DNA of 30,679 nt from IMG/VR virus record IMGVR_UViG_3300037587_000579, positions 1-30,679 of that record; one strand, 5' to 3'. Below, piece after piece: positions 1 through 29,055 of this stretch. The position numbers were made by a program, and so were the translations under genes. A model generated the notes under the pieces. It did no database searches. It was not told the DNA's origin and worked only from the letters and a program-made list of their open reading frames with translations. Position 1 is the first letter of the stretch; the number at the start of each line of letters is the position of its first letter. This DNA comes from a virus.

Positions 1-1602
1 CAAATAATCACTCGCACGAACCAACGTGATATCTCCCAATCAATCATATCAGCCAATAGACAATTGCAGGAGTTGGCTGAGCCAGGGGAGATTGTGAGCA
101 CCAGAGCGGTGGCCGCAACAGCAGGAGCTTTATTGCGACGCAAACTAAAAGGTCGCACTAGAACTATTGCAACAACTGAAGTTCAAGTCGCTGCTGAATC
201 ATCCAAATCGACCGAAACGTCAATATTAACTAGAAATCCCGCCTCACTCCCTAGGCCCGCGTTGGCAATACCTCAACCTCAAGTTGTTGTGCCTGAACTC
301 CCTGTGGGATTAACTCCGCCGCCTGTTGAAAAGGAATGGGTTACAGCCGGTGACGAAGTAGTAAGGGTTTCTCCATTTAGTCACGTCGCTGCTGACGGTC
401 AGAAAGTTAATATAAACGAATCATTTAACGTTGGCGGTCAATTATTAAGGATACCAGGGGACACTAGCCAGGGAGCTTCCTTGTCGAATGTCATAAATTG
501 CTTGCATCCAGACAGTGTCGTTGATGCAAGCAATATCAAGGCATTAACCAGACGTTATTATAAGGGAATCATGATTAGGATCGAGTTGCCCTCCGGCGAC
601 AAACTCACCGTCACCCCTAATCATCCGGTATTGACTGTCGATGGTTGGGCTTTTGCTAAGGCTATCAATAAAGGAGATAGCGTACTTGGTTGCTTCGGTG
701 GTGATAGGAGCATAAAAGGTCTGAATGTAAAGTACGTTAAAACCACAATCGAGCAAGAATTCAATTCTTTCTCTGAACTTGGTGCTGTTATGCGGGTGAA
801 GCGTGCAATTGTGAATTTCCACGGCGAGATTCCCGACCATGATATCGACATTGTAAACGCCAACGGCCTTTTGTGGAATACAGGAAAATCCCATATCACT
901 GACGCTTTTAATAAAAAAATTCTCACCTATACCGACTTTGGAGCAGGTAAGCTCTTTAGTGACTGCCTGCTTAATGGAAGATTTTTTATGCCAATCACTT
1001 CCTTTTGCTCGGATTGCATCGTTAGCATTTTTGGAAAGCGCTTGCCTATCCTCGAAAGAGTTGTTGGCCATTCTGTGGAGCATAGCTTGAGATTTATTCC
1101 TAGTTTTCACACCTCCAAGCTCCAGAGCTTTTTTAATGGCCTTTCTGCCATATCCAGTTTTCTCGTGTATAGCTTTTATAGAAAGCCCCTCAGTGTAATA
1201 GGGAATCACATCATTAAATATTTCCTTGCTGCGAAAAATACTATTTGCAGTGGAAGCCTCGGCCCTGCTCCTGACTTTAACTCCGGAATTAATAATAATT
1301 TTCTTAACGGTGTGATCAGAAATATTAAATCGATGCACACAGGTAGCCACGGAAGCGCCAGCAACATAAGCGTTAATAATGTCGTCAGTATTGAACATAT
1401 TGAATACTCCGGTCATGTTTATAATATTGAAACTGATTCAAATATATATCTTTCCGAAGGAGTTATCAATCACAATTGCCGATGCGCAAGCGTAAGGGAT
1501 AAAGAAGATGTATTGAACGCTAGAAAAGCAATTTTTGACGCTGAGACTCGGATAGAAGCCGAAACCGAAGTGGCAGTCCCTGAATTCGGGTTTACATCCT
1601 AG
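1..1602 (+). CDS. Minor head protein (SPP1 gp7 / Mu F-like), 5'-truncated, interrupted by an intein
   Basis: The reading frame is open from base 1, so the gene begins upstream of the window; the TTG at 64 is unlikely to be the true start. The host protein part carries the C-terminal signature of the SPP1 gp7 / Mu gpF minor head family: W-x-T-x-G-D-E-x-V-R near 340-370, S-H-V-A-A-D-G-Q near 385-405, then F-N-V-G-G-Q-L-L-R-I-P-G-D and N-V-I-N. The expected next residues, C-R-C-A-S-V, appear only after 978 further nucleotides, at 1477. The intervening in-frame segment has intein ends. Splicing would give N-V-I-N-C-R-C-A-S-V, the usual family ending, followed by an acidic tail to 1602. Members of the family sit near the portal and take part in head assembly and DNA ejection. 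The protease and capsid genes follow directly, which fits. The family call is firm from the motif; splicing itself is inferred. Confidence 0.88.
   Translation, partial: QIITRTNQRDISQSIISANRQLQELAEPGEIVSTRAVAATAGALLRRKLKGRTRTIATTEVQVAAESSKSTETSILTRNPASLPRPALAIPQPQVVVPELPVGLTPPPVEKEWVTAGDEVVRVSPFSHVAADGQKVNINESFNVGGQLLRIPGDTSQGASLSNVINCLHPDSVVDASNIKALTRRYYKGIMIRIELPSGDKLTVTPNHPVLTVDGWAFAKAINKGDSVLGCFGGDRSIKGLNVKYVKTTIEQEFNSFSELGAVMRVKRAIVNFHGEIPDHDIDIVNANGLLWNTGKSHITDAFNKKILTYTDFGAGKLFSDCLLNGRFFMPITSFCSDCIVSIFGKRLPILERVVGHSVEHSLRFIPSFHTSKLQSFFNGLSAISSFLVYSFYRKPLSVIGNHIIKYFLAAKNTICSGSLGPAPDFNSGINNNFLNGVIRNIKSMHTGSHGSASNISVNNVVSIEHIEYSGHVYNIETDSNIYLSEGVINHNCRCASVRDKEDVLNARKAIFDAETRIEAETEVAVPEFGFTS
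544..1398 (-). CDS. Putative Vsr-like homing endonuclease encoded antisense within the intein
   Basis: This is a 284-residue protein on the opposite strand of the intein. The frame is open to an ATG at 1416, but the ATG at 1398 is preferred because GGAG (1407-1410 on the minus strand) lies 8 bases before it. Two helix-turn-helix-like repeats, at about residues 5-48 and 59-105, end in parallel strings G-V-K-V-R-S-R-A-E-A and G-V-K-T-R-N-K-S-Q-A. A nuclease-like core follows: G-E-N-F-F-I-K (about 158-164), Y-N-V-D-I-M-V (D185), A-V-E-I-H (E194, H196), then R-E-R-I-E-F-L-L and G-F-N-V-L-Y-I. The pattern resembles the Vsr / PD-(D/E)XK fold used by Vsr-like phage homing endonucleases. The last 30 or so residues lie antisense to intein block B and are probably a dispensable read-through tail. 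Internal repeats, an SD and a coherent nuclease core argue against a chance shadow. The function is inferred. Confidence 0.75.
   Translation of the reverse strand: MFNTDDIINAYVAGASVATCVHRFNISDHTVKKIIINSGVKVRSRAEASTANSIFRSKEIFNDVIPYYTEGLSIKAIHEKTGYGRKAIKKALELGGVKTRNKSQAMLHRMANNSFEDRQALSKNANDAIRAKGSDWHKKSSIKQAVTKELTCSKVGIGENFFIKSVSDMGFSCIPQKAVGVYNVDIMVGNLAVEIHNCTLHPHNSTKFRERIEFLLDCGFNVLYIQTFYAPITTEATKYAISFIDSLSKSPTIDSQYRMIRGDGEFVAGGQLDPNHDSLIITSG
1407..1410 (-). promoter_or_regulatory. Shine-Dalgarno for the antisense intein endonuclease
   Basis: On the minus strand, GGAG is followed by 8 bases and then ATG at 1398. No comparable SD sits at a suitable distance before the upstream in-frame ATG at 1416. 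The site therefore decides the start and supports expression of the antisense gene. Confidence 0.55.
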
Positions 1603-24042: not shown

Positions 24043-24483
24043 CTAAAAAAAGTTATAGAGTTGACTCAAAGTATTCTCGTCTGTCGTCCGATCAAATACT
24101 CGCTTAATTGCCGCATTAATTATCCGCTTGTAAAAGTCCGATCGTTCCTCTGGCGACATTTTTTCGTAGTTAAGAGATTTCGCAACAATCTCAAAACCGC
24201 CATCACGATTAAATACCTGCCTGTAATAGCCTGCTAAAATCGTTAATTTCTTCCTGACATAATCAAGCTGATATTCGTCCTTATGCGCTTCACTGTCGCC
24301 ATAATAATGCTGAGTACAGAACGAAAAGAACAGGAACATTTTACGGTGCAGCTTGCCATTTTGCTTCAGAGGGATATCAACCTTGTACTCTTCGCCATTG
24401 CCTAGCTTGTCCATTTTTACTAGCTGAGCGTCATCAGCAGGAACTAAAATACCACCTGGCGATTTGATCAAATTAACTTTCAT
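24043..24483 (-). CDS. DUF1367-family phage protein
   Basis: The 146-residue protein fits the DUF1367 family: an opening L-I-K-S-P-G-G-I-L-V-P-A-D-D, then K-Q-N-G-K-L-H-R-K-M-F. R-K-K-L-T-I-L-A-G-Y-Y and a conserved K-S-L-N-Y-E-K-M-S follow, with F-Y-K-R-I-I-N-A and a short end. Its role is not established; the family occurs in the nin-like recombination regions of lambdoid phages, and resolvase and DUF1364 genes lie downstream here. It is coupled to the preceding HNH gene by an ATGA overlap. Confidence 0.82.
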   Translation of the reverse strand: MKVNLIKSPGGILVPADDAQLVKMDKLGNGEEYKVDIPLKQNGKLHRKMFLFFSFCTQHYYGDSEAHKDEYQLDYVRKKLTILAGYYRQVFNRDGGFEIVAKSLNYEKMSPEERSDFYKRIINAAIKRVFDRTTDENTLSQLYNFF

Positions 24484-25100
24484 GTCGCTACCTCTGCGGC
24501 AATTCTCACCAAATAACTCTTTAATGGCTGCTCTTGATCTTTAGCTACAGATAGTATTAATTTTGATTTGAATTCTTTGTATACCTTGCTAGCCTCAAGA
24601 GAAGTACAGAACAAGCCAAGGTATTTAAGTTTATTGTTAACTACGCATCGAGACATGAACTTGTTACTTTGCTTGTTGAAATAAACGCCTAGCGGCCACT
24701 TTCCGCGAGATGCTAAGCTATCACAAGTTAGCATGTTGATTTCGTGCGCAACAAAAATACAAGTGTCTGGTGAGTATATTTTATTTCCTGAAAACTTAAT
24801 GTCTTTGTCTAGGTCTTTATTTTGCCAATCTTGATTAGTCATCCACGACCTAAAGTTAGAGAATGTTAGCCATTCTTCACAAACTGAGCATTCTTTATAT
24901 GTTGGCTGTTTATCATGGAAGCTTTCTGAATAACAGCGCCTGATCATCTCCTTCCATCTTAAGTAAAACGGACAGAGAATTCGCCTCCCGTTAACTGCGG
25001 AGGATATTTTATAGTGAGCATCATTTATACCAATGCCATAAATTGGCATCCTCTTAGATACAGACATTTTTGTGGCAGGAATTACTGGAAATTCTTTCAT
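24480..25100 (-). CDS. HNH/AP2-like homing endonuclease, copy 1
   Basis: The 206-residue protein carries the phage HNH/AP2-like pattern. Its N-terminal part has Y-G-I-G-I-N-D-A and C-P-F-Y-L-R-W-K-E-M-I-R-R-C-Y. A middle section has P-T-Y-K-E-C-S-V-C-E-E-W-L-T-F and L-D-K-D-I, then N-K-I-Y-S-P-D-T-C. A C-terminal AP2-like DNA-binding part has P-L-G-V-Y-F-N and Y-L-G-L-F. A second copy lies at 25819-26463. GAGG precedes ATG 25100 and the stop overlaps the DUF1367 start. Such free-standing genes are usually mobile. Catalysis is inferred from the family pattern. Confidence 0.78.
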   Translation of the reverse strand: MKEFPVIPATKMSVSKRMPIYGIGINDAHYKISSAVNGRRILCPFYLRWKEMIRRCYSESFHDKQPTYKECSVCEEWLTFSNFRSWMTNQDWQNKDLDKDIKFSGNKIYSPDTCIFVAHEINMLTCDSLASRGKWPLGVYFNKQSNKFMSRCVVNNKLKYLGLFCTSLEASKVYKEFKSKLILSVAKDQEQPLKSYLVRIAAEVAT

Positions 25101-25298: not shown

Positions 25299-25300
25299 TT
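25275..25300 (+). terminator. Rho-independent terminator on the plus strand, opposite to local genes
   Basis: GCCCAC and GTGGGC form a 6-bp stem with an 8-base loop, followed by TTTTTT. The minus-strand side of the hairpin lacks a T run, so it works for rightward transcription although all neighbouring genes point left. It may block antisense transcripts or end a small RNA. Confidence 0.55.
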
Positions 25301-25829
25301 ATTTGCCGTACAATTCAGATTTTTTAACGTAACTGGTTATTTGAGCCCCGATTTTATACGGATTAAACACCAGGACAAACTGAGGCTTGTTATTGGCACT
25401 AATTGGCTTACCTTCACTATTTAAAAAACCGATTCGACCGCTTGAATATTCCCGCTTACCTTCTGGCGTTTCATCCGCGATAATATGCCGAATCTCACTA
25501 ACCGTTTTAAGCGCCTCAGCGAACCAGCCTACGCTAGTATCATCGTTTAGCAGCATAACTACGCCTAAACCGTTTAACTGTGCCTCGATTGCCTTTTTAA
25601 CCCACGGCATCGGGTTTGAGTAAGGACAGTTTAACCACACGTATCTAGTCCTGTTGCTTTGCAAGCATGGTTCATGTGCCCAATCAAAACTTAACGAATC
25701 TTGTTCTTCGGTAAAGTGTAAAGATAATAAAGCGTTTTCATGACTCGCTGCCATGTCAGCCATGAAATCAAATTCTTTATAAAGTGTGTTAAATACTGGC
25801 AAAGGCGTGCGCCATAGGTCATTTGACAT
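25299..25829 (-). CDS. Phage DNA N6-adenine methyltransferase (Dam-like)
   Basis: The 176-residue protein matches the phage DNA N6-adenine methyltransferase family. It opens W-R-T-P-L-P-V-F-N-T-L, then F-M-A-D-M-A-A-S and the catalytic N-C-P-Y-S-N-P (residues 67-73), a variant of N-P-P-Y. G-V-V-M-L-L-N-D-D-T-S-V-G-W-F and G-R-I-G-F-L follow. It would methylate adenine in phage DNA, which can evade host restriction. AGGA lies about 9 bases before ATG 25829. The start overlaps the end of the second HNH gene by 11 bases. It is flanked on both sides by HNH genes. Confidence 0.9.
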   Translation of the reverse strand: MSNDLWRTPLPVFNTLYKEFDFMADMAASHENALLSLHFTEEQDSLSFDWAHEPCLQSNRTRYVWLNCPYSNPMPWVKKAIEAQLNGLGVVMLLNDDTSVGWFAEALKTVSEIRHIIADETPEGKREYSSGRIGFLNSEGKPISANNKPQFVLVFNPYKIGAQITSYVKKSELYGK

Positions 25830-26463
25830 CGTTTAATTCCTTGCATCTAGTTAAGTACAATTGTGCTCGTTTATTAAGAGCTTTTGCTGTTACTTTATTG
25901 CTTTGTTTTTCTGATAAAGCAATTGCTAACTGAGCTTTTCTTTTTAGGTAATAAATCTCAGCTAAATTTTGATTATCAAATAACCCGCAATACTCACTGG
26001 CTCCGCCTGACCTGATGTTTGCCGTGTGTTTACCACTGGCTTTGTGAAATGAAACACCCAAAGGTAGTTTGCCTCTGGTTTTTTTATTTTCATGCAAAAA
26101 ACCGTTAACCTCACTGGTTACAAATAAGCAGGTTTCTTTTGAATATAGTTTGTTCTCAGGAATCAAAAGATCCTTATCCAAATGCTTATCTTCCCAGTCT
26201 TGCTTGATCATCCAGTTTTTGAAATTAGAAAATGTTAGCCACTCATCAGAAACGCTACAACTAATGTATGTCGGCCTCTTTGCATGTAAAACGCTTGAGT
26301 AACACCTCCTAATCATGTCCTTCCACTTTATGTAATAAGGGCACCTAAAAACCTTTCCTTCAAACTTTAAAATAGTCATGTAATTGGCGTCGTTAATCCC
26401 AACTCCATGAAGTAGCCTTTTCTTTGCGAGTGAATATTTATTAATAGGAATTTCTTTAAACAT
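25819..26463 (-). CDS. HNH/AP2-like homing endonuclease, copy 2
   Basis: The 214-residue protein is a clear paralogue of the product at 24480. They share G-V-G-I-N-D-A, C-P-Y-Y-I-K-W-K-D-M-I-R-R-C-Y, P-T-Y-I-S-C-S-V and E-W-L-T-F-S-N-F. Also shared are L-D-K-D-L and K-L-Y-S-K-E-T-C, and a C-terminal AP2-like part (P-L-G-V-S-F-H, C-G-L-F). AAGGAG 7 bases before ATG 26463 is a strong ribosome site. It overlaps the methyltransferase start. The two copies differ throughout, so they are not a recent duplication. Confidence 0.78.
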   Translation of the reverse strand: MFKEIPINKYSLAKKRLLHGVGINDANYMTILKFEGKVFRCPYYIKWKDMIRRCYSSVLHAKRPTYISCSVSDEWLTFSNFKNWMIKQDWEDKHLDKDLLIPENKLYSKETCLFVTSEVNGFLHENKKTRGKLPLGVSFHKASGKHTANIRSGGASEYCGLFDNQNLAEIYYLKRKAQLAIALSEKQSNKVTAKALNKRAQLYLTRCKELNDVK

Positions 26464-27715: not shown

Positions 27716-28033
27716 TTAAATATTCTTCGACCAAAGGCCGTCAATTGAAGTGTATTTGCGCTCTTTAGGCTTGATAGCTGGCACCGTCTTAGCCTTCAGC
27801 TTAACAACTCTTTCTGGTAACTCGGGCCGGTATTCCTCGGCCACCGCCCTAAGATACTCATTAGCCGCATCGCGCCCGGCGTACCCTTCATTGAACTTGA
27901 GTAACTTTTCATAATGATTAGTAACTTCTCGCCGCCTATCTTCTGGAATGGCCCGCATTTTCTTAATTATCCAGTGAATATCATTAACACCGCGGCGGCA
28001 AAAATACATGATTGATCTAATTAGCTTGGCCAT
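27716..28033 (-). CDS. Hypothetical basic helical protein
   Basis: The 105-residue product starts at ATG 28033 after AAGGGG, overlapping the methyltransferase gene end by 13 bases. It is helical and basic, with R-A-I-P-E-D-R-R-R-E-V-T-N-H-Y, then A-G-R-D-A-A-N-E-Y-L-R and a Lys/Pro-rich end. There is no membrane or metal motif. It could be a DNA-replication accessory protein, but no family is recognised. Confidence 0.65.
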   Translation of the reverse strand: MAKLIRSIMYFCRRGVNDIHWIIKKMRAIPEDRRREVTNHYEKLLKFNEGYAGRDAANEYLRAVAEEYRPELPERVVKLKAKTVPAIKPKERKYTSIDGLWSKNI

Positions 28034-29016
28034 AGCAACCCCTTAAATATATGAACGATCACATCGTGAGTCCATCCGTTGCCAAGCATTTTGTATAATT
28101 GAGTATTGCTAACTCCAGAGTTTAATAGTGTGTCAATGTGATGCTCCGGAACAGTTTGAAGCCTAGCGCATTCTGCAACAGTAAATCTTCGAACATTATT
28201 TGATTTATGAATGTCAATTCTTCCTGAAGATGTTAAAGGAATTTCAACACCATTAAACACTAAAACATCCATATCCGAATGATTTCCGCCGGAATTACCG
28301 TTGCCAGTTAATGTGGATGATTTATTAACTATTTTTTTGGGCTTGCTGGGTTTGTTTTTTTTATAAATTAAAAAGTTGTTTTGCTCCCAGCTATTAGAAG
28401 TAACAGTTCCAACTTTGCCGTTCTTTGCTCTAATTCCACCAGAGTTGTTGCCTCGAGGCTTTAAATAACTACAAATAGCTGAATCAATAATATCCGATAA
28501 AATTACATTTTTATCGTCCGGTTGATTAAAATCCCAACTAGCCCAATAGTAACGAATCCTATTCTGAGCGCTAACTTTATCGCTATTTATTAATTTTGGT
28601 TTAACACCTAATCCTTTTGTTATAACCTCTGCATCAATCTGATTAAGCTTTACATTTTCAAGCATAAAATTTATATTTTTATTGAATTTTCTTGCGTGAT
28701 TTAAAATATTCTCAAATTCAAAGTATAATTTCGACCTTGGGTCATCGAATGAAAGTTTTTTGCCTGACGAACTAAAACCTTGACATGGTGATCCGCCAAT
28801 AATCAAATCAATACTTGACCAATCAATGTCCCACTCGCGCCACCTGGTAACATCGCCCATCTGAATAATATCAGGGTAAAGCGCTTTGGTTGCCTGGTTA
28901 GCATACTTGTCAATTTCACTTGAGTAATAATTGCCAACTTCAACCCCTAATGTTTCTAGTGCCATCATTCCAAAGCTCATACCGTTAAATAAACTCATTA
29001 CATTTAATTTTTTCAT
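28021..29016 (-). CDS. C5-cytosine DNA methyltransferase (Dcm-like)
   Basis: The start is set at ATG 29016, since GAGG touches the earlier ATG (29025) but is 9 bases before this one. The 331-residue product has the motifs in order: V-M-S-L-F-N-G-M (I), G-G-S-P-C-Q-G-F (IV, catalytic Cys78), F-M-L-E-N-V (VI) and Q-N-R-I-R-Y (VIII). A target-recognition region of about 160-270 follows, then T-V-A-E-C-A-R-L-Q (IX) and L-G-N-G-W-T-H-D-V (X). All key residues are present. It would methylate cytosine in phage DNA, so the phage may mark both adenine and cytosine. Its target sequence cannot be predicted. Confidence 0.93.
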   Translation of the reverse strand: MKKLNVMSLFNGMSFGMMALETLGVEVGNYYSSEIDKYANQATKALYPDIIQMGDVTRWREWDIDWSSIDLIIGGSPCQGFSSSGKKLSFDDPRSKLYFEFENILNHARKFNKNINFMLENVKLNQIDAEVITKGLGVKPKLINSDKVSAQNRIRYYWASWDFNQPDDKNVILSDIIDSAICSYLKPRGNNSGGIRAKNGKVGTVTSNSWEQNNFLIYKKNKPSKPKKIVNKSSTLTGNGNSGGNHSDMDVLVFNGVEIPLTSSGRIDIHKSNNVRRFTVAECARLQTVPEHHIDTLLNSGVSNTQLYKMLGNGWTHDVIVHIFKGLLWPS

Positions 29017-29055
29017 AATTATCATCCTCGATGACTTGGCCAGTTAAACGGTTAA

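Follow-up and report, generated by a model that had tools for sequence, protein, structure and literature searches.

The window analyzed here is the whole 30,679-nucleotide stretch of IMG/VR virus record IMGVR_UViG_3300037587_000579 (positions 1 to 30,679, one strand). Its first open reading frame (ORF; 1-1602, plus strand) is open at the 5' end and encodes a MuF-like minor head protein that contains an intein, with no stop codon anywhere across the intein, and a second ORF runs on the opposite strand through the middle of the same intein (Table 1). An earlier note on this DNA had described an intein with clear splicing ends whose middle holds no endonuclease in the sense frame, had proposed that a homing endonuclease is encoded there by an independent gene on the opposite strand, and had called for a homologue search, a structure prediction, and an analysis of strand-specific variation. 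The splicing ends are as described: in frame with the host gene, the intein carries C1, the block B motif TPNH, an HN|C end, and Cys+1, and it matches the Pfam Intein_splicing family at 5e-14. Intein-less relatives define the same boundaries. Four such loci (L099, L098, L100, and L101) align without gaps across the joined exteins of the window at 88, 84, 78, and 77% nucleotide identity, respectively, the first of them over 455 bp spanning the junction, and their N-extein proteins are 95% (over 106 amino acids), 91, 86, and 87% identical to that of the window. Relative to these alleles, the intein is a precise insertion.

Table 1. Positions of the host gene, the intein, and the antisense gene in the window, with the evidence for each (HTH, helix-turn-helix; AF2, AlphaFold2; pLDDT, AF2 confidence score; w, selection measure defined in the text)
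Feature	Position	Strand	Evidence or remark
N-extein, MuF-like minor head protein	1..498	+	PHROG 2468/3517 head morphogenesis matches to residue 167; ungapped intein-less relatives; gene truncated by the 5' end of the window
Intein, 326 codons, at N|CRC site	499..1476	+	Pfam PF14890 5e-14, TIGR01445 4e-7; precise empty alleles
N-terminal splicing part, residues 1-62	499..684	+	sense w 0.11-0.31; AF2 pLDDT ~95
Sense reading of insert, residues 63-290	685..1368	+	open; sense w 0.6-1.1; disorder predicted for most of it from residue 125 on
C-terminal splicing part, blocks F/G, residues 289-326	1363..1476	+	AF2 pLDDT 92-97; sense w 0.39 (291-310), 0.16 (311-326)
C-extein, CRCASV... through stop codon	1477..1602	+	sense ORF; intein-less relatives
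Antisense endonuclease gene (predicted), 284 amino acids	544..1398	-	in-frame upstream ATG1416 gives 290 amino acids (ORF 544-1416); profile, model, and family evidence
First HTH, residues 10-43 of 290	1288..1389	-	AF2 helices 10-18, 23-30, 34-43; HTH_58, 2lvs matches
Second HTH, residues about 66-100	1117..1221	-	AF2; HTH_7/HTH_23 across family
Vsr/I-Bth0305I-type nuclease domain, residues 159-277	586..942	-	VIA-align, profile match, residue conservation
Nuclease codons (290-residue numbering)	E165 922-924, D191 844-846, E200 817-819	-	
Putative sigma-70-like promoter TTGATA-17-TATATT, 10/12	1441..1469	-	entirely within intein; family-wide excess over synonymous shuffles
Shine-Dalgarno GGAG	1407..1410	-	8 nucleotides before ATG1398; family-wide codon bias for this signal

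The middle of the intein contains no recognizable endonuclease in the sense frame. All 47 sense inteins of the family that were compared with Pfam match Intein_splicing; no endonuclease family was found among them, and the sole other match is one weak Hint hit (Vint). A profile of the sense family likewise recovers only splicing domains from the PDB. A match of the window's sense insert to ParM (4xhp, E = 0.0035) did not recur with the family profile and was taken as chance. The AF2 pLDDT of the sense intein is ~95 at both ends; it is about 80-90 for residues 81-120 and drops below 50 for residues 125-288. This intein is not one of the canonical type, in which a nuclease is fused to the splicing domain in the sense frame.

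The antisense ORF shares the register of the sense frame, each sense codon being the reverse complement of an antisense codon, so that both strands use the same triplets. Its extent and signals agree with the 284-residue product preceded by GGAG 8 bases before ATG1398 that had been reported; residue numbers below follow the 290-residue form starting at ATG1416. The structure prediction, made with AF2 from 59 sequences, has a mean pLDDT of 92.7. Foldseek alone gave no match in the PDB with E below 0.001, and VIA-align was run on its candidates. For residues 159-277, the top ranks were the Vsr structure 1cw0 (Z = 9.7) and 3hrl, 3r3p, and 1vsr (each Z = 9.1); the alignment to 3r3p, the catalytic domain of I-Bth0305I, covers 92 residues with a root-mean-square deviation of 3.3. 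The N-terminal part of the model aligns with HTH/paired-like domains, and its two HTH units, which resemble those of regulators and transposases, are found by both profile and model, as the earlier note had read them from the sequence. A profile search with the antisense protein matched 3r3p at 5e-6 and 2lvs at 4e-9, and Pfam assigned HTH families to the antisense proteins and REase MTES_1575 to 34 of 59. Within the nuclease, the Y188-N189-x-D191 motif and E200 are invariant (D191 and E200 in 59/59), E165 is present in 57 and replaced by D in the remaining two, and H207 is present in 35 and replaced by N in 11, with no conserved D following it. The Vsr-like core proposed earlier therefore stands with respect to its fold and to E165, D191, and E200, but not with respect to its histidine ("H196" in the 284-residue form, H202 here), which occurs in only 17/59. 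As modeled, the protein combines a Vsr-type nuclease fold, conserved candidate catalytic residues, and a DNA-binding module, as a homing endonuclease would.

The homologue search reached far beyond this locus. In a tblastn search with the antisense protein, 126 of 50,697 phage records matched (best E = 3e-35), from phages of Idiomarinaceae, Gordonia, Vibrio, Salmonella, Klebsiella, Pseudomonas, Aggregatibacter, Helicobacter, and others. Two laboratory phages, Snoke of E. coli and Vivi2 of Gordonia, are among the carriers of the module. Raising the threshold to E = 10 added no phage match with nuclease similarity, the added Bacillus matches covering the HTH part only, and the phage collection held no close DNA-level relative of the window. 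Eight matching records with annotation were inspected first, and in each of them the antisense gene lies opposite a head (or similar) gene. We collected further loci by scanning IMG/VR and a set with a single genome for each species with profiles, and scored their layout with intein N, intein C, and nuclease profiles. The nuclease ORF lay antisense within an intein, in the same register and with the sense frame open, in 96/96 and then in 138/138 distinct loci; among these 138 viral and genomic loci, found via the nuclease-core motif, none is free-standing. Host genes are mostly MuF, interrupted at the N|CRC site or at other sites, but also include genes for a dCMP deaminase (L007), UDG-PolA fusions (L073, L042, and L061), and a Terminase_3-like protein (L081). 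The antisense-in-intein arrangement is a widespread family and not a one-off.

Three of these loci call for comment. In Virus Rctr197k (KX853510; L007, 619-2025), the gene named "putative head morphogenesis protein" has the exteins of a dCMP/cytidine deaminase (PF00383, 6e-11) together with this intein, from which the public name probably derives. A fragment of the antisense gene is annotated as "hypothetical protein" in Salmonella phage vB_StyS-sam (LC507823; L097, 1409-1810, plus strand), a rare public annotation of it that does not name it as a nuclease. Locus L025 is about 99.8% identical to L017 and L016, but its sense frame is broken by a single-base shift close to where the intein begins, either a sequencing error or early decay.

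We compared 16 pairs of related loci, some sharing members, to determine which strand is under selection. In the N-extein, sense position 3 evolves fastest in 16/16 pairs; in the intein middle, it is sense position 1, which is antisense position 3, again in 16/16. For the 11 independent pairs, we counted substitutions by their effect in each frame (w). The intein middle gave an antisense w of 0.44 (0.39-0.49) and a sense w of 0.85 (0.76-0.93), compared with 1.07 and 0.36, respectively, in the N-extein control, and the splicing blocks gave sense w values of 0.26 and 0.18. Resolved more finely, constraint is stronger on the antisense frame in intein residues 63-290 and on the sense frame in residues 1-62 and 311-326, such that it switches frame at residue 62/63 and again near the C-terminal block. 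The window paired with its nearest intein-bearing relative, L012, has an antisense w of 0.38 in the insert. The insert therefore varies synonymously in the antisense frame and not in the sense frame, the reverse of the variation that the earlier note had named as refuting its proposal; its two other refuting outcomes, a lack of homologues elsewhere and a model with no nuclease fold, did not occur either.

The shared register also shows how both frames persist. In this register, a sense stop can arise only opposite an antisense TTA, CTA, or TCA codon (Leu, Leu, and Ser), all of which can be avoided synonymously, and therefore both frames can stay open. Across 77 loci, free antisense codon use would be expected to produce 488 sense stops, and none were observed; free sense codon use would be expected to produce 621 antisense stops, and 22 were observed; many loci have just one, which is probably where the antisense gene itself ends. 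Together with the w values, these counts indicate that both frames are kept open while clear amino acid selection in the insert is found only in the antisense frame. The two reading frames form a dual-coding pair, both open and both selected, in which the sense filler is under weak amino acid selection or none.

Signals for expression of the antisense gene are under selection as well. The antisense start of most loci is situated 60 bases from the end of the intein, across from the His in block F (GHVYNL), and GGAGGT frequently occurs 7 nucleotides upstream of it; the window differs in that its start is displaced to ATG1398. Taking codon usage in the exteins of the same gene as the expectation, the block F His is encoded by CAT, which reads ATG on the antisense strand, in 41/51 loci (20.6 expected), and the Leu that gives the Shine-Dalgarno sequence is encoded by CTC in 39/55 (11.5 expected) and by CTG in 1/55 (17.8 expected). 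Neighboring control codons show no such bias. Promoter expectations were obtained by synonymous shuffling of the last 20 intein codons in 113 loci; a per-offset profile of mean matches was uninformative, being dominated by low-variance offsets, and counts of strong matches were used instead. Perfect antisense TTGACA-TATAAT pairs (12/12) occur in 7 of the 113 loci compared with 0.07 expected, and antisense promoters scoring at least 10/12 occur in 23 loci compared with 3.3 expected (maximum of 8 in 200 draws). Nearly all strong promoters place the -10 box 26 to 28 bases from the intein end. Other regions had no promoter excess, and the sense strand of the last-20-codon region had only a slight one (t = 2.0 versus 6.9). 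There is also a second layout, in which a close match to TATAAT stands 9 bases from the end of the intein (35/113 loci; 14.7 expected), often as an extended -10 element (TGnTATAAT). Within the last 20 intein codons, an antisense promoter, Shine-Dalgarno sequence, and start codon are thus under codon-level selection, and given these embedded signals, the opposite-strand gene does look independent, as had been proposed.

Considering the features computed here (the intein, the antisense ORF and its fold, strand-specific selection, start and promoter signals, empty alleles, and patchy distribution), the locus is very probably a mobile intein with dual coding, in which an autonomous gene on the antisense strand encodes the homing endonuclease. 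We infer its expression, splicing, cleavage, and homing along the following lines. Translation of the plus strand would yield a head protein with the insert still in it, the Hint ends would splice, and the intein would leave with its mostly disordered filler. The minus strand would act as an autonomous gene with its promoter, Shine-Dalgarno sequence, and start codon inside the C-terminal splicing block, and expression of the two-HTH Vsr-type nuclease from this promoter would not depend on the late head gene. The nuclease would most likely cut intein-less alleles near the N|C insertion site, and repair of the cut allele would copy the intein in. Early expression of the nuclease may provide the selective advantage of the arrangement. 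The relationship to L012 fits this scheme: its antisense protein is 48% identical to that of the window and its host protein only 40%, whereas the four loci with N-exteins 86-95% identical to that of the window have no intein, and such incongruence between host and intein, together with the occurrence of the family in unrelated host genes, is what homing predicts.

Several observations weigh against this interpretation. An incongruent and patchy distribution, although predicted by homing, could also come about by gain and loss without it. The promoter of the window scores only 10/12 and is not significant by itself. Relatives were identified by a nuclease-core motif, and very divergent free-standing ones could have been missed. 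Sense residues 77-124 are modeled by AF2 with fair confidence, although their sense w is 0.62-0.97, and therefore some sense constraint may operate there.

We also asked whether the antisense ORF could be a mirror artefact of a real sense frame. Overlap in the same register mirrors amino acid conservation (hydrophobic to polar), such ORFs often arise by chance, and sense constraint does dominate the last ~45 antisense residues, which overlap splicing block B. The codon-position, w, and start-signal tests reject this explanation: the fastest codon position in the insert is the reverse of that in the exteins, the antisense w is about half the sense w, and codons are selected for an antisense promoter, Shine-Dalgarno sequence, and ATG. 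Confident nuclease and HTH folds, moreover, appear in the antisense frame only, and we consider an artefact extremely improbable. A real antisense protein might instead serve as a DNA-binding regulator of late genes or as a nuclease for defense or competition against other phages. Its HTH units are of a kind found in regulators and transposases, MTES_1575/DUF559-type nucleases occur outside homing too, and the embedded antisense promoter could itself reduce head gene transcription. Against such a role, the module sits inside an intein in every one of the 138 loci and at conserved sites of unrelated genes, its presence is patchy relative to closely related empty alleles, which is a classic homing signature, and its catalytic residues are invariant; we regard a nonhoming function as quite improbable. 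It is also conceivable, but unlikely, that the element was once mobile and that its antisense gene is now decaying and inactive in this phage. Homing genes commonly decay after fixation, and the window copy has the weaker promoter and the displaced start; its frame is nonetheless intact, E165, D191, and E200 are all present, and the low antisense w of the window/L012 pair extends to this copy.

The dual-coded intein resembles several known systems without matching any of them. Dassa et al. are said to have described in 2009 "fractured genes" linked with I-Bth0305I/EDxHD endonucleases (title cited in PMC3229294). The antisense protein shares with I-Bth0305I a Vsr-type nuclease domain, a separate DNA-binding region, and a phage homing context, but whereas I-Bth0305I is encoded in a group I intron, the gene found here is antisense, lies within an intact cis-intein, and overlaps the intein coding sequence. 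The E and first D of the EDxHD motif are matched by E165 and D191; for the H-D end, the partly conserved H207 is a candidate, with no second D found. EDxHD homing endonucleases (I-Bth0305I, PDB 3r3p) have been reviewed (PMC3943268). In canonical inteins of the PI-SceI type, a LAGLIDADG or HNH endonuclease is a sense-strand domain fused in frame (PMC3943268, PMC6801210). The inteins described here resemble these in their Hint domain, insertion at a conserved motif, empty alleles, and the position of the nuclease between the two splicing parts, and differ in that the nuclease is a separate opposite-strand gene with its own start signals instead of being produced together with the host protein. 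Of the published cases found, the closest is the ShiLan domain, an HNH endonuclease hidden in an alternative frame of a phage methylase insertion (PMC11855218, 2025). Both have an endonuclease in another reading frame of an insertion that keeps the host frame and contains no sense stop; here, however, the frame is antisense, the insertion is a splicing intein, the nuclease is Vsr-type, and a ribosome-binding site and promoter are selected, whereas ShiLan is not an intein and its description has no opposite-strand wording. Searches of the open-access literature turned up no intein reported to contain an antisense nuclease gene; a 2025 preprint by Gosselin on the "non-canonical architecture" of actinophage inteins lies outside that search and may already cover part of this arrangement, and priority for such a description is uncertain.

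Elsewhere in the window, two paralogous proteins of ~210 amino acids with no Pfam match (24480-25100 and 25819-26463, both minus strand) flank a Dam methyltransferase gene (25299-25829, PF05869); by eye, they look like mobile HNH/AP2-type endonuclease genes. A C-5 cytosine DNA methylase (PF00145, 5e-32) is encoded at 28021-29025 (minus strand), giving the phage a cytosine methylase in addition to its adenine methylase.

We consider it likely, with good confidence, that these loci form a class of their own among mobile inteins, with the homing endonuclease in every case encoded by an autonomous antisense gene that shares the same DNA in a single stop-avoiding register, with start signals within the conserved splicing motifs and nuclease expression freed from the late head gene. 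Inteins are usually described as spreading through a nuclease domain of the spliced protein, with nuclease and host protein made together. With the two uncoupled on opposite strands, nuclease production could begin early although the host genes are mostly late structural genes. The antisense overlap is large and deeply conserved, at about 270 codons in phages of several bacterial phyla, and its clear strand-specific selection makes it a useful test case for the upkeep of dual coding. Standard annotation misses the antisense gene, nearly all public records showing the sense head gene only, and the family adds new candidates to the site-specific nucleases and inteins.
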